From Sphingomicrobium sp. XHP0239 (lineage in GTDB: Bacteria; Pseudomonadota; Alphaproteobacteria; Sphingomonadales; Sphingomonadaceae), in the NCBI RefSeq assembly GCF_039555325.1, contig NZ_CP154608.1:620001-684000 (forward strand): a stretch of DNA of 64,000 nucleotides, written 5' to 3'. Position 1 is the stretch's first letter; each line of letters starts with the position of its first letter. The position numbers were made by a program, and so were the translations under genes. The notes below the pieces were generated by a model that was given only the letters and a program-made list of their open reading frames with translations, did no database searches and was not told the DNA's origin. Shown here piece by piece: positions 16,783-21,147 of this stretch.

Positions 16783-17241
16783 ATGCGACCCTTCGGCCTG
16801 CCACCCTGGATCGCGTTGCTCGGATTTGGCGGCCTCCTGCCGCCGCTGGCGTTGATCGTCCTCGGGCAACTCGGCGGTCCCGCTGCCCACTCGATCGAGT
16901 TCTGGGGCGTGGTGTATGGCGGTCTGATCCTGACCTTTCTGGGCGGGACATGGTGGGCGTTCGCGAGCCGGTTTCCGCCGCGCAAGCTGCCGACCGGCAT
17001 CCTGATCCTGTCGGTAATGCCGAGCCTGATCGTGTTCGCGCTGATGGTGATGCTGTTCAGCTTCGCGGCCCTGTCGCCGTTCATCGCCGGGCTGATCGTG
17101 GGCGGCCTCATCCTCTTCTCGCCGCTGGTGGACGCATGGATCGCACGGCGTCGCTACACCCCGCGCTGGTGGATGACTTTGCGCGTGCCATTGTCGATCA
17201 TTCTGGCAGCGTTGACGATCGCCTGCGGCTGGCTGGCCTAG
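16783..17241 (+). CDS. DUF3429 inner-membrane protein
   Basis: 152 residues with about five hydrophobic helices. The second contains [21 protein letters not shown], the conserved DUF3429 segment with Tyr/Gly and a small-residue-rich turn. The family is found widely in proteobacteria and has no established function. It runs divergent from rpiB with a 72-base gap, and its stop overlaps the convergent hemA gene by 4 bases. Confidence 0.8.
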
Positions 17242-18458
17242 GCCGCGCGCACGTCTCGCAGATTGAGCCGGGCCCAGATTTCCATCAGCCCTTTCACCAG
17301 CTCGTCCATCATCGCCTCGGTATGGAAGGGGCCGGGGGTGAAGCGCAACCGCTCGGTCCCGCGCGGGACGGTCGGGAAATTGATGGGCTGAACGTAGCAG
17401 CCATATTCGGCCAGCAGGATGTCGCTGATTTCCTTGGCCTTGACCGGATCGCCGACCATCAGCGGGACGATGTGCGTCTCGCTTTCCATCACGGGAAGGC
17501 CCGCGACCGCCATCTTTTCCTTGAGCGCGCGGGCCGAGCGCTGCTGCGCGTCGCGTTCGACGGACGATTGCTTGAGATGCTTCACGCTGGCGAGCGCGCC
17601 CGCGGTCAGAACCGGCGAGAGCGACGTGGTGAAGATGAACCCCGGCGCGTAGCTGCGGATGCAATCGATGATGGTCCTGTCAGCAGCGACGTAGCCGCCC
17701 ATTACTCCGAACGCCTTGCCCAGCGTGCCCTCGACCATCGTGACCCGCTCGGCGACGCCGTCGCGCTCCGAGATGCCGCCACCCCGCGCGCCGTACATGC
17801 CGACCGCGTGCACCTCGTCGAGATAGGTCAGCGCGCTGAATCGATCGGCCAGATCGCAGATCGCCTCGATCGGGGCGACGTCGCCGTCCATCGAATATAC
17901 GCTTTCGAACGCAATCAGCTTGGGCGTGTCGGCCGGAATGTCGCGCAGCAGTTCCTCGAGATGCTCGAGATCGTTGTGGCGGAAGATCCGTTTCTCGCAT
18001 CCCGAATTGCGAATGCCCGCGATCATCGAGGCGTGATTGAGTTCGTCCGAAAGGATGATGCAGCCGGGAAGCAGCTTGCCCAGCGTCGACAATGCCGCCT
18101 CGTTCGAGACGTAGCCCGAGGTGAAGAGAAGCGCGGCTTCCTTCTCGTGGAGGTCGGCGAGCTCGGCCTCGAGATGGACGTGGAGATGCGTGTTGCCGCC
18201 GATGTTGCGCGTGCCGCCCGAGCCCGCGCCGACGTCGTGCAACGCCTCTTCCATCGCGGCGACGACCTTGTCGTGCTGACCCATCCCCAGATAGTCGTTG
18301 GAGCACCAGACCGTGATCGGACGCGGTCCGTTGTGGCCGTGGAAACAGCGCGCGTTGGGATAGGCACCCTTGTTGCGCATGATGTCGATGAAGACGCGGT
18401 ATCGTCCCTCGTCGTGAAGGCGGTCGATCGCGTTCTTGAAGATGCTCGAATAGTCCAT
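17238..18458 (-). CDS. hemA: 5-aminolevulinate synthase
   Basis: 406 residues. This PLP enzyme condenses glycine and succinyl-CoA to 5-aminolevulinate, the alphaproteobacterial (Shemin) entry to heme. Motifs include [12 protein letters not shown], the glycine-rich [33 protein letters not shown], and the PLP lysine in [15 protein letters not shown]. The frame starts at an ATG followed by [14 protein letters not shown], as in homologues. Heme is also relevant to the ubiquinone and respiratory genes in this window. It is a single gene between DUF3429 and murI. Confidence 0.97.
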
Positions 18459-18499
18459 GGGCCTGTGAGGGGAGCCTCTACTAATTCCTTACGCGTGCG

Positions 18500-19288
18500 T
18501 CAAAGGGTCGAAAGGTCGGTGATTCCGAAGCGGGTCAGCGCCTTTGCGAGACCTGGCGTGGCGGGCGCGGTAAGGAGGCCGCGACCCGGGGGGCGGGTCT
18601 CGGGCCAGTTCTGGTCCTTCGTCAGATAGGCGATCCGGCGCGCGATGCCCTGTCCCCCGTCGATGAAGGTCACGTCAGGATGCTCCTCGCGCAGCCAGTC
18701 GGCGACCAAGGGAAAATGCGTGCAGGCGAGGACGACGGTGTCGAGATTCTCGCCACCCGGCTGATCGAACAGCGGACGGGCGGCGGCGATCACCTCGGCC
18801 CGTTCGACGGGTTCGCCCGTTAGCCGACGTTCCGCCAGTTCGACCAGCGTGGCGGAGCCGTGGCGGAGCACGGTGCAGTCGGTCGCAAAATCGCTGGCCA
18901 GCGTATCGACATAGGGTTGGCGCACCGTGGCTTCGGTACCCAGCACGCCGATGACCCGGGACCGGCTTTGTTCGGCGGCGGGCTTGATCGCGGGAACGGT
19001 GCCGACCACCGGCACGTCGAGCGCGGCCCGGACATGGTCCAGCGCAATTGTGCTGGCGGTGTTGCAGGCAATGGTCACCAGTCTCGGCCGCACTCGTTCG
19101 ACGAGCCGACCGAGCAGGGCGGGAACCCGCGCGGCGATCTCGGCCTCACTGCGTATTCCGTAGGGAAAGGCCGCGTTGTCGGCTGCATAGACGATCGGCG
19201 CCTTCGGCAACCGCTCGCGAGTCGGGTCGAGGATCGACAATCCGCCGATGCCGGAATCGAAGAAGAGAAGGGGGGCGTCGGGCGACAT
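18500..19288 (-). CDS. murI: glutamate racemase
   Basis: 262 residues. It makes D-glutamate for peptidoglycan. The catalytic elements are visible: FFDSGIGGLSILD with the conserved Asp and Ser, the first cysteine in IACNTASTIALDHVR, and the second in VVLACTHFPLVADWL. The length is normal. It is followed by hemA after 41 bases on the same strand, so the two may be co-transcribed. Confidence 0.94.
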   Translation of the reverse strand: MSPDAPLLFFDSGIGGLSILDPTRERLPKAPIVYAADNAAFPYGIRSEAEIAARVPALLGRLVERVRPRLVTIACNTASTIALDHVRAALDVPVVGTVPAIKPAAEQSRSRVIGVLGTEATVRQPYVDTLASDFATDCTVLRHGSATLVELAERRLTGEPVERAEVIAAARPLFDQPGGENLDTVVLACTHFPLVADWLREEHPDVTFIDGGQGIARRIAYLTKDQNWPETRPPGRGLLTAPATPGLAKALTRFGITDLSTL

Positions 19289-19333
19289 TTGCCGCCCTCC
19301 TGCCCGCCCTCTCGTTCGAGTGCAAGAGGCGGG

Positions 19334-20389
19334 CTACCGGTCTTCGTAGGGCACGACTTCGAACAGATATTCGTTGCCCGCATCGTCCGTGAAACTGACC
19401 GTCGCAAATTCGTTTGCCGTGACACGACCGTCCTCGTCCCGGTCCATGAAGGCGAAGATCTCGCGCGCCTCCTTCTCGAACCCCTGGAAGGTCGGGCGAC
19501 CCGATCGAAAGGAGCTGGTGAGAAACTCGTTCAGTTCGATGGCACCGGAGGAATCGCGGTCGGTCCGAGCGAAGGCGAAGTCGTAAAGGTCTTCACCGGG
19601 GGGAGGCGTGAATGCGACGCGATTGGAATATTTGAATGGCTCGCCGCCCGAAAAATCACCCGGCTCTGCAAAATCGCCAAGCTCTGCAGTAAAGAAGGTG
19701 CGCGGGACCATCCCTTCGAGAAAAGCCGCTTCATATTCGCCCTTGTCGATCCGGCCGTCTTCATCGCCGTCGAGGATCGTGAACAATGCCTTGCGCCGCC
19801 GCATAGACTCGGCAAGGGCGGCGTCCAGATCGAAATGTTTGGGCATTCGGCTTTGGGCCAGACTGCCCACCAGCGAAGCAGGGACGAATTCGTCGCGTTC
19901 GATATAGCCCGTTCCGTCGAGGTCGATCCGGGCGAATCCCTCGGCTGCGGCGCCCAGTTCACCGGTCAAGGCATTCTCGACCGCCTCTTCCTGGGTTCCC
20001 TGTGCCGACTGGGATGCGGGGGACGATGAGAGAGCGAAAAAGGCGTACGCGCCCGCCGCCAGAATGCCGATTGTCGTCATGATGAGGGTTCCTTTGCGAA
20101 CAGTCTTGAAGCCAACATGTGTCGGCTCGGTAGTCTGCTGCTCCGGCTGGCCCTCTGCCTCTAGGTCCGGTGAACCGGATACGGTTCGACCGTAGCGGTC
20201 GCGATGCAGCCGCGCCGCATCGAGGGAAGTATCGGCGCCAAGCTTCTGGCGAGCGCGCTTGAGGCGCTTTTCGACCGCGTGGTGCGAGATGCCGAGCTCG
20301 AGAGCCATCTCCTTGGCGGTCTTGTGATCGAGGATCCCTGCAAGAACTTCGCGTTCGCGGCTCGTCAGCGGGTCGGGGGACGTGGACAT
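19334..20389 (-). CDS. membrane-spanning LuxR-type regulator with four periplasmic EF-hands
   Basis: 351 residues from MSTSPDPLTS; an upstream in-frame start (20470) adds an unconserved leader. Residues 8-60 form a GerE/LuxR helix-turn-helix (LTSREREVLAGILDHKTAKE, GISHHAVEKRLKRARQKLG). After a polar linker, one membrane helix spans about 101-121. The remainder, predicted to be outside the cytoplasm, holds four canonical 12-residue calcium loops at 156-167 (DLDGTGYIERDE), 207-218 (DGDEDGRIDKGE), 277-288 (DRDSSGAIELNE) and 316-327 (DRDEDGRVTANE). No receiver domain is present. This looks like a one-step, CadC-like calcium-responsive transcription factor. The domain assignments are visible; the calcium-sensing role is inferred. 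It is divergent from plsY. Confidence 0.85.
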   Translation of the reverse strand: MSTSPDPLTSREREVLAGILDHKTAKEMALELGISHHAVEKRLKRARQKLGADTSLDAARLHRDRYGRTVSGSPDLEAEGQPEQQTTEPTHVGFKTVRKGTLIMTTIGILAAGAYAFFALSSSPASQSAQGTQEEAVENALTGELGAAAEGFARIDLDGTGYIERDEFVPASLVGSLAQSRMPKHFDLDAALAESMRRRKALFTILDGDEDGRIDKGEYEAAFLEGMVPRTFFTAELGDFAEPGDFSGGEPFKYSNRVAFTPPPGEDLYDFAFARTDRDSSGAIELNEFLTSSFRSGRPTFQGFEKEAREIFAFMDRDEDGRVTANEFATVSFTDDAGNEYLFEVVPYEDR

Positions 20390-20508
20390 TCGCCGATTGT
20401 AGGCGAAAGGCGAGCCCAGCGGGAAGGGCGGTCGGACCGTACTTCTCAGAAGAACCAGTGTCCCAATCACCTTGCCAGTCTGGCCCGCACTGCTACCAAG
20501 GCCGGACC

Positions 20509-21147
20509 ATGGACGCTTTCCAGACCTACTACTGGCCGCTGCTGATCGGCTACGCGCTGGGATCGATCCCGTTCGGGGTGCTGATCGTGAAGGCCGCGGG
20601 GAAGGGCGACCTTCGAAGCGTCGGTTCCGGGAATATCGGCGCCACCAACGCGGTGCGTGCGGGCGGCAAGGGCGTCGGGCTCACGGTGCTGTTCTTCGAC
20701 GTCATGAAGGGCGTCGCGGCAGTGCTGATCGCGCGACACGCCTTCCCCCCGCAGGCCGAGATTTTCGCCGCCATCGGCGCGCTGCTCGGGCATCTGTATC
20801 CCGTCTGGCTCAAGTTTCGCGGGGGCAAGGGCGTGGCGACGATGTTCGGCATCCTCGTCGCGCTCGACTGGCGGATCGGACTGATCGCGCTCGCCGTCTG
20901 GATCCTCGCCTTCCTCGTGACGAAGATGTCCTCTGTCGGTGGACTTCTTGCCGCCTTGTCCTCTCCCATCGCCGCCGTATCGCTGGGGCGCGAGGACCTG
21001 TTCAATCTCCTGCTCGGATTCACTCTTCTCATCTGGTGGAAACATCGCGCGAATATCGCCCGGATCCTGAAAGGGACCGAGCCGCGCTTTGGCCGCCGAC
21101 GAGACGTTGCCAGGGCAGACGATGACATCGAACCCCAACCGAATTGA
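20509..21147 (+). CDS. plsY: acyl-phosphate glycerol-3-phosphate acyltransferase
   Basis: 212 residues with five predicted membrane helices. PlsY uses acyl-phosphate to acylate glycerol-3-phosphate, the first step of phospholipid synthesis. The three conserved cytoplasmic motifs are seen: LGSIPFGVLI, GSGNIGATNAVRAGGKG, and KFRGGKGVATMFG. The start at 20509 begins the first helix. Its 3' end overlaps dprA by 26 bases, the order plsY-dprA being common in proteobacteria. The C-terminal tail is about 20 residues longer and more charged than usual. Confidence 0.94.
   Translation: MDAFQTYYWPLLIGYALGSIPFGVLIVKAAGKGDLRSVGSGNIGATNAVRAGGKGVGLTVLFFDVMKGVAAVLIARHAFPPQAEIFAAIGALLGHLYPVWLKFRGGKGVATMFGILVALDWRIGLIALAVWILAFLVTKMSSVGGLLAALSSPIAAVSLGREDLFNLLLGFTLLIWWKHRANIARILKGTEPRFGRRRDVARADDDIEPQPN

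Follow-up and report, generated by a model that had tools for sequence, protein, structure and literature searches.

A predicted membrane-tethered LuxR-type regulator with four EF-hands, encoded beside murI in Sphingomicrobium and preceded by a candidate operator

The membrane-bound regulators CadC and ToxR carry an OmpR/PhoB-type winged helix-turn-helix (HTH) domain (Trans_reg_C), which defines their family, and their sensor domains have folds other than the EF-hand. LuxR binds its target site near position -43. In eukaryotes, the EF-hand repressor DREAM/calsenilin is a soluble protein with no separate HTH. Many bacterial EF-hand proteins have, to our knowledge, no known job. In the accessible part of its description, EfhP of Pseudomonas aeruginosa (PA4107) is a Ca2+-linked protein predicted to lie in the inner membrane with two periplasmic EF-hands (PMC4053335). 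LadS is similarly described, in the part of the source available, as a Ca2+-responsive histidine kinase with seven transmembrane (TM) helices and a DISMED2 domain that acts on a cascade (PMC10574481). A survey of transmembrane transcription regulators (TTRs) counts more than a hundred DNA-binding domains; LuxR, GerE and EF-hand do not occur in its main text, though GerE-TM proteins may well be counted in its supplements (PMC10269533). The same three terms are absent, by term search, from the accessible text of a review (PMC5936718). We found no GerE-TM-EF-hand regulator in the open-licence literature searched, in agreement with a first-pass annotation of this DNA that knew of no named system of this type.

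The window analysed here, a stretch of 64,000 nucleotides from Sphingomicrobium sp. XHP0239, contains on its minus strand a gene (19334..20389) that encodes a regulator of the order HTH, flexible linker, membrane helix and four EF-hands. The reading frame begins with ATG, has zero internal stops and runs as a single intact frame of 351 amino acids. The LuxR/GerE-type HTH occupies residues 6-60 (20210..20374, minus strand); its Pfam GerE match scores 33.6 bits against a cut-off of 23.5, and the structure model shows a four-helix fold. The sole clear hydrophobic segment, residues 102-120 (20030..20086, minus strand), has a mean Kyte-Doolittle value of 1.99 and is read from hydropathy as a single membrane helix; in the structure model, a helix spans residues 108-119 and is flanked by stretches with pLDDT <50. 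The EF-hand_1 family matches at 61.5 bits over four stretches. A chance occurrence is excluded by the Pfam E-value of 2.5e-17 together with full-length relatives that share the domain order. Thus the reading frame, the Pfam scan and hydropathy bear out the annotation's placement of a DNA-binding domain, a membrane helix and four EF loops on one chain. Neither a kinase nor a receiver domain accompanies the DNA-binding domain and the TM helix, which supports the proposed one-component layout resembling that of CadC and ToxR. No autoinducer-binding or receiver domain was found among the Pfam families listed at E<=1, and Trans_reg_C is absent among the 16 families so listed. Since the VIA rows extend for the most part over residues 3-68, an absent match for other parts is uninformative.

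The four 12-residue EF loops lie on the minus strand: loop 1 at residues 156-167 (DLDGTGYIERDE; 19889..19924), loop 2 starting at residue 207 (DGDEDGRIDKGE), loop 3 at residues 277-288 (DRDSSGAIELNE; 19526..19561) and loop 4 at residues 316-327 (DRDEDGRVTANE; 19409..19444). As expected of EF-hand proteins, canonical loops with flanking helices are arranged in pairs. The claim that all four loops keep the canonical positions stands for loops 1-3, which have Asp or Glu at position 9, and falls for loop 4, where position 9 is Thr. "Calmodulin-like", as the module had been called, is a loose description: successive loops lie 51, 70 and 39 residues from one another, and the structure model places beta strands, not an F helix, after the fourth loop. 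Two other assignments were rejected. Lanthanide sensing of the lanmodulin kind is contradicted by an NCBIfam score of 20.3 bits against a cut-off of 135; lanmodulin is marked by Pro at EF loop position 2, where the regulator has L, G, R and R. Nor is the protein a sigma factor, since only its region-4-like HTH matches (Sigma70_r4_2, over the Pfam cut-off) and the combination of regions 2 and 4 is not present.

Because the chain has a single TM helix, we infer that the HTH is cytoplasmic and the EF-hand domain periplasmic. The 15 residues before the helix include three K/R and one D/E, and the 15 after it include no K/R and two D/E; across the family this bias is modest, with more charge before than after in 79/133 members. 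Given the canonical loops, Ca2+ sensing by the EF-hand domain is plausible.

Relatives of the regulator were readily found. A phmmer search returned 55 further proteins, 32 of which have an EF-hand Pfam domain; 29 combine GerE with EF-hand, the architecture for which the annotation had suggested searching. Full-length relatives with identical domain order include P0002, P0003, P0004 and P0006 (52%, 47%, 45% and 36% identity, respectively), and a profile search reached 172 proteins, the best 120 of which were examined. Database labels for these relatives are "EF-hand domain-containing protein" and "LuxR C-terminal-related transcriptional regulator". That an assembly frameshift had joined two genes, or that the gene is a pseudogene, has a negligible chance of being true: the architecture recurs, intact and homologous, in independent genomes and metagenomes, the frameshift that was to overturn the first reading was not seen, and nothing was found in its favour.

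The gene is patchily distributed. Within the genus, 20/71 genomes have a match at E<=1e-8 and 8 carry the regulator at murI, indicating that it is dispensable. At the larger scales, matches were found in 31/197 genomes of the order (1e-20, all within the home family), 33/397 of the family (1e-30) and 3/289 of the class (1e-20, all three in the home family); these counts are lower bounds, made from the best few candidates scored per genome, and include EF-less members. Scanning the DNA of named genomes yielded 50 loci, which come almost entirely from Sphingomonas or Erythrobacter relatives; one Rhodobacteraceae record and one Maritimibacter record matched weakly. One record, L047, is named Microvirga sp. 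SRT01 and groups with Sphingomonas members; a wrong record name or a gene transfer may explain this.

The HTH-TM part behaves as a chassis that bears differing C-termini among paralogs. Among 135 proteins with the HTH signature, a regular expression counted four EF loops in 5, three in 7, two in 30, one in 13 and none in 80. In L042, the EF-hands are replaced by a sensor-kinase input domain, 2CSK_N (Pfam, 24.5 bits against a cut-off of 23.2). With 68 rows and few columns, a tree of the HTH-TM part has poor resolution; the EF and murI labels cluster in it but form no single clade. We made several side observations on these C-termini. P0099 also joins the chassis to 2CSK_N, according to a precomputed Pfam list. 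P0032, P0051 and L015 were scanned and carry a C-terminal domain with no Pfam family over the cut-off, and L020, L029, L030, L033, L034, L037, L039, L040 and L044-L047 resemble them; this domain is repeated in the longer members, and its loci lie away from murI where the flank allows a judgement. Finally, P0007 seems to have its EF pairs in reversed order relative to P0001, with the pair that precedes a strand-like FTNDDG..FAFE stretch coming first.

In the window, the regulator gene is followed after 45 bp by murI (18500..19288, minus strand; glutamate racemase), then by hemA (17238..18458, minus strand; 5-aminolevulinate synthase), and it faces a divergent plsY-like gene (20509..21147, plus strand), the three names being read from sequence. 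By tblastn with the window genes, topA-dprA-plsY faces regulator-murI-hemA in Erythrobacter-like, Sphingomonas and home-genus genomes. Of the 35 A1 matches among the 197 order genomes, 12 adjoin murI, and they make up 12 of the top 13. We found, in 70 distinct members, that EF-bearing members lie directly upstream of murI in 37/43 distinct cases, and EF-less members adjoin it in 4/25 cases with enough flank (two more are cut by contig or locus ends). Loci L007 (4872-6937) and L011 (1430-3060) have tandem HTH-TM paralogs before murI, and a copy of the operator precedes every one of them. The listed genomes of the order's other families gave no MurI match at E<=1e-20, although the enzyme is usually essential.

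Does the regulator act on murI, or is its place merely inherited? The second view, in which there is no functional link, draws support from the regulator gene being so often missing and from what remains without it: in 18/20 chosen family genomes with no regulator at murI, plsY and murI stand back to back with nothing regulator-like between them (in the remaining 2/20, plsY was not found beside murI). Because the plsY-murI neighbourhood is kept without it, the regulator is an optional gene in a shared locus. Against mere inheritance, the gap between regulator and murI stays at 34-82 bp in 38/41 adjoining members over wide divergence, and EF-less members seldom hold the murI place. We regard an inherited position as a substantial possibility, though one at less than even odds. 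No terminator-like site was found in the regulator-murI gap, and the regulator is probably co-transcribed with murI.

The EF-hands may not be sensors. They may instead carry Ca2+ in the periplasm at all times, as a structural scaffold, while the protein responds to something else, such as a cell-wall fragment, a partner protein or the state of the membrane. Constant loading fits the micromolar binding often seen with such EF loops and the roughly 10 mM Ca2+ of seawater. Paralogs sharing the chassis have non-EF C-termini, members differ in having 1 to 4 EF loops and the neighbouring gene is a cell-wall gene, all of which points the same way. Within A1, which was drawn from the EF-bearing matches, F152, D156, E167 and E218 never vary, and EF members keep to the murI locus; neither observation speaks strongly against constant loading. 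We therefore treat constant loading as a serious rival to Ca2+ sensing, if on the whole an unlikely one. The greatest doubt in our reading is whether Ca2+ carries a signal or is simply always bound; the direction of control is the second.

Upstream of the regulator gene we found a palindrome, predicted to be an operator. In the window it reads TACGGTCCGACCGCC (20427..20441, minus strand), scores 21.2 bits with our position weight matrix and has a weakened right half, with two mismatches to the palindrome; a -10-like TACAAT (20396..20401, minus strand) lies directly before the ATG, and the distance between it and the operator centre is 33 nt, as against 32 nt in most relatives. Given the weakened half and the spacing of 33, the window's site may be less typical than those of its relatives. 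The dyad GGT-N6-GTA was present in 26/35 distinct regulator intergenic regions and in 0/40 plsY-murI intergenic regions without a regulator, and ten shuffles gave a maximum of 14-16 for any dyad of this kind. A matrix score >=12 was reached in 31/37 regulator regions, the matrix having been trained on the same loci as first tested, and controls reached at most 5.7; the score occurred in 0/1096 random windows from those loci and at five places in 484 kb of shuffled loci.

The palindrome TAC-N9-GTA lies upstream of 43/70 members: 30/37 EF-bearing members beside murI, 3/4 EF-less members beside murI, 2/6 EF-bearing and 6/21 EF-less members elsewhere, and 2/2 cut loci. Paralogs with other C-termini keep it (L015, L020, L041, L042 and L062), and the palindrome thus accompanies the HTH to other loci. 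Its distance to the -10-like element is also fixed, with the TA exactly 32 nt from the palindrome centre in 35/43 distinct sequences (next commonest offset, 3) and in 26/32 representatives under 60% identity. A strict sigma-70 scan of 17000-20600 found no promoter, and the one terminator-like site in the scan of this interval is located within the regulator coding sequence. Because the ATG follows the -10 element so closely, the regulator mRNA may be leaderless. The predicted operator would then be centred near -44, roughly where class II activators such as LuxR sit. This position favours positive autoregulation, without proving it; a repressor at -44 could look alike.

A second predicted operator lies within the gene itself. 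The sequence TACGGTCGAACCGTA (20180..20194, minus strand) forms codons Y66-V70, where a Tyr-x-x-x-Val motif after the HTH is encoded as TAC-N9-GTA, in a geometry equal to that of the upstream palindrome. When Val is present, its codon is GTA in 36/36 members and 22/22 representatives, as compared to 68/881 Val codons (7.7%) elsewhere in these ORFs. Other residues at this position keep the final A as well: Gly is GGA in 4/4, Ile ATA in 2/2 and Thr ACA in 1/1. Ala is GCA in 2 and GCC in 5, and Leu is CTT in 1. The third base is A in 45/51 at this position vs 13%, a count that leaves out the 19/70 members without a rule-matching Tyr. Some Sphingomonas members (L050, L051, L052) have both halves changed, to TACCAG-N3-CTGGTA, and have no upstream match above threshold. 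The two sites tend to occur together: among 62 members, 27 have both, 10 the upstream site only, 8 the intragenic site only and 17 neither (Fisher p 0.0019, an optimistic value as members are related). Their centres lie 246-294 bp apart with no evident helical phasing. In G023, an exact palindrome (G023:C1:1917069-1917083) comes shortly after the HTH part of another paralog, showing that the intragenic site is not confined to the murI locus.

We examined a fresh draw of members with predictions fixed beforehand. The matrix reached 12 or more in 5/7 new members, and the Val codon was GTA in 2/2. Among the three new EF members beside murI, the prediction on the upstream site did not hold: only 1/3 scored >=12, with the close relatives L205 and L206 failing, and only 1/3 had two or more EF loops.

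The palindromes need not be operators of this protein. The upstream copy could be an ordinary promoter element, as it reaches the -35 position; the intragenic copy could be an mRNA hairpin, since TACGGT..ACCGTA could fold into a short one, or a pause after the HTH, GTA being a rare codon in these ORFs. A codon pause has no need for the coordinated change of both halves seen in the Sphingomonas-type members, and third-base A is kept across several residues. Self-complementarity of at least 5 of 7 pairs at the intragenic site, found in 28/48 members vs 223/11,235 in-frame 15-mers, likewise argues against this rival, and RNA pairing is poor in many of the upstream copies (TACCAGCCGACCGTA), though TAC-N9-GTA is common to both places. 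That neither palindrome is an operator of this protein seems to us improbable.

Genome-wide, such sites are few. In 16 genomes the exact TACGG-N5-CCGTA occurs at 1-3 places each: 21 places in 8 carriers (25 for the reversed control), of which 8/21 are at the murI-side regulator, and 12 places in 8 non-carriers (control, 28). Two of the three exact places in each of G001 and G005 are the regulator's two sites, one of two in G000 is the intragenic site, G016, G022 and G023 each have one at the regulator, and G032 and G033 have no exact palindrome there. The 17-mer with up to 3 mismatches occurred at >=76 places in 8 genomes vs >=115 for its control; a second pattern, searched at the same tolerance, matched twice, each time at the regulator, and its control also matched twice. 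A composite of operator and TA gave 4 matches in 8 genomes, all at the regulator's promoter, and none in 4/8 carriers, the window genome included; because the reversed control gave 14, the evidence here is the location of the matches, not their number. We took a one-mismatch site elsewhere in the window genome (L184), which lies inside an ORF, as chance. A different palindrome, TACGGTTTTGCCGTA, recurs away from the regulator in G002, G003, G010, G012, G014, G022, G023, G032 and G033. With no excess of sites over controls in the genome-wide searches, we rejected a large regulon, and we favour instead a local circuit consisting of the regulator itself and, by read-through across a gap lacking a terminator-like site, murI and perhaps hemA.

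Our main reading, to which we give a probability of roughly 0.6, is of a membrane-tethered one-component regulator with a ToxR/CadC-like layout, a LuxR-type HTH and an exchangeable sensor, self-regulated via two predicted operators. In the mechanism we propose, the periplasmic EF domain would bind Ca2+, and the metal (or a partner) would alter the pairing of receptors within the membrane. Paired HTHs would then recognise the TACGG-N5-CCGTA site around -44, thereby switching the regulator-murI(-hemA) transcript, and the intragenic site, 246-294 bp downstream, could tune the response through looping or as a roadblock. A wider proposal, which we hold tentatively and think rather more likely wrong than right, is that these proteins are modular transmembrane LuxR-type receptors with exchangeable periplasmic inputs (EF-hand, 2CSK_N and others), controlling their own leaderless promoter via an operator pair whose second member lies in the post-HTH codons, with Y-G-x-T-V kept partly for the DNA, and that the EF-hand branch couples external Ca2+ to murI and so to cell-wall D-glutamate. 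The murI linkage, the two predicted operators and the swapping of C-terminal modules go beyond what the first-pass annotation had claimed. If the intragenic operator is real, a protein motif is conserved at least partly by a constraint on DNA, and the question becomes how a membrane-bound factor reaches two sites on its own gene. Predicted binding sites together with a predicted target gene make the regulator directly testable.

How, then, does this regulator compare with known systems? Like CadC and ToxR, it places an N-terminal cytoplasmic DNA-binding domain, a linker, one TM helix and a C-terminal sensor, here inferred to be periplasmic, on one chain with no phosphorelay; unlike them, it combines a four-helix LuxR/GerE HTH with EF-hands. 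As their defining winged HTH was sought with Pfam and not found, the regulator stands outside the ToxR/CadC family proper. Like LuxR/NarL/FixJ proteins, it has this type of HTH and, near -43, a predicted palindromic site of the kind bound by dimers, but its HTH is N-terminal and membrane-anchored, and we found no autoinducer or receiver domain. EfhP has two EF-hands to the regulator's four, and the accessible part of its description mentions no DNA-binding domain. LadS, as far as its available account goes, resembles the role proposed here in linking Ca2+ to gene expression, but does so through a kinase cascade. DREAM/calsenilin likewise unites EF-hands and DNA control in one protein. Set among these systems, the regulator would offer a plausible direct route from calcium outside the cell to a promoter, within one chain of 351 residues.
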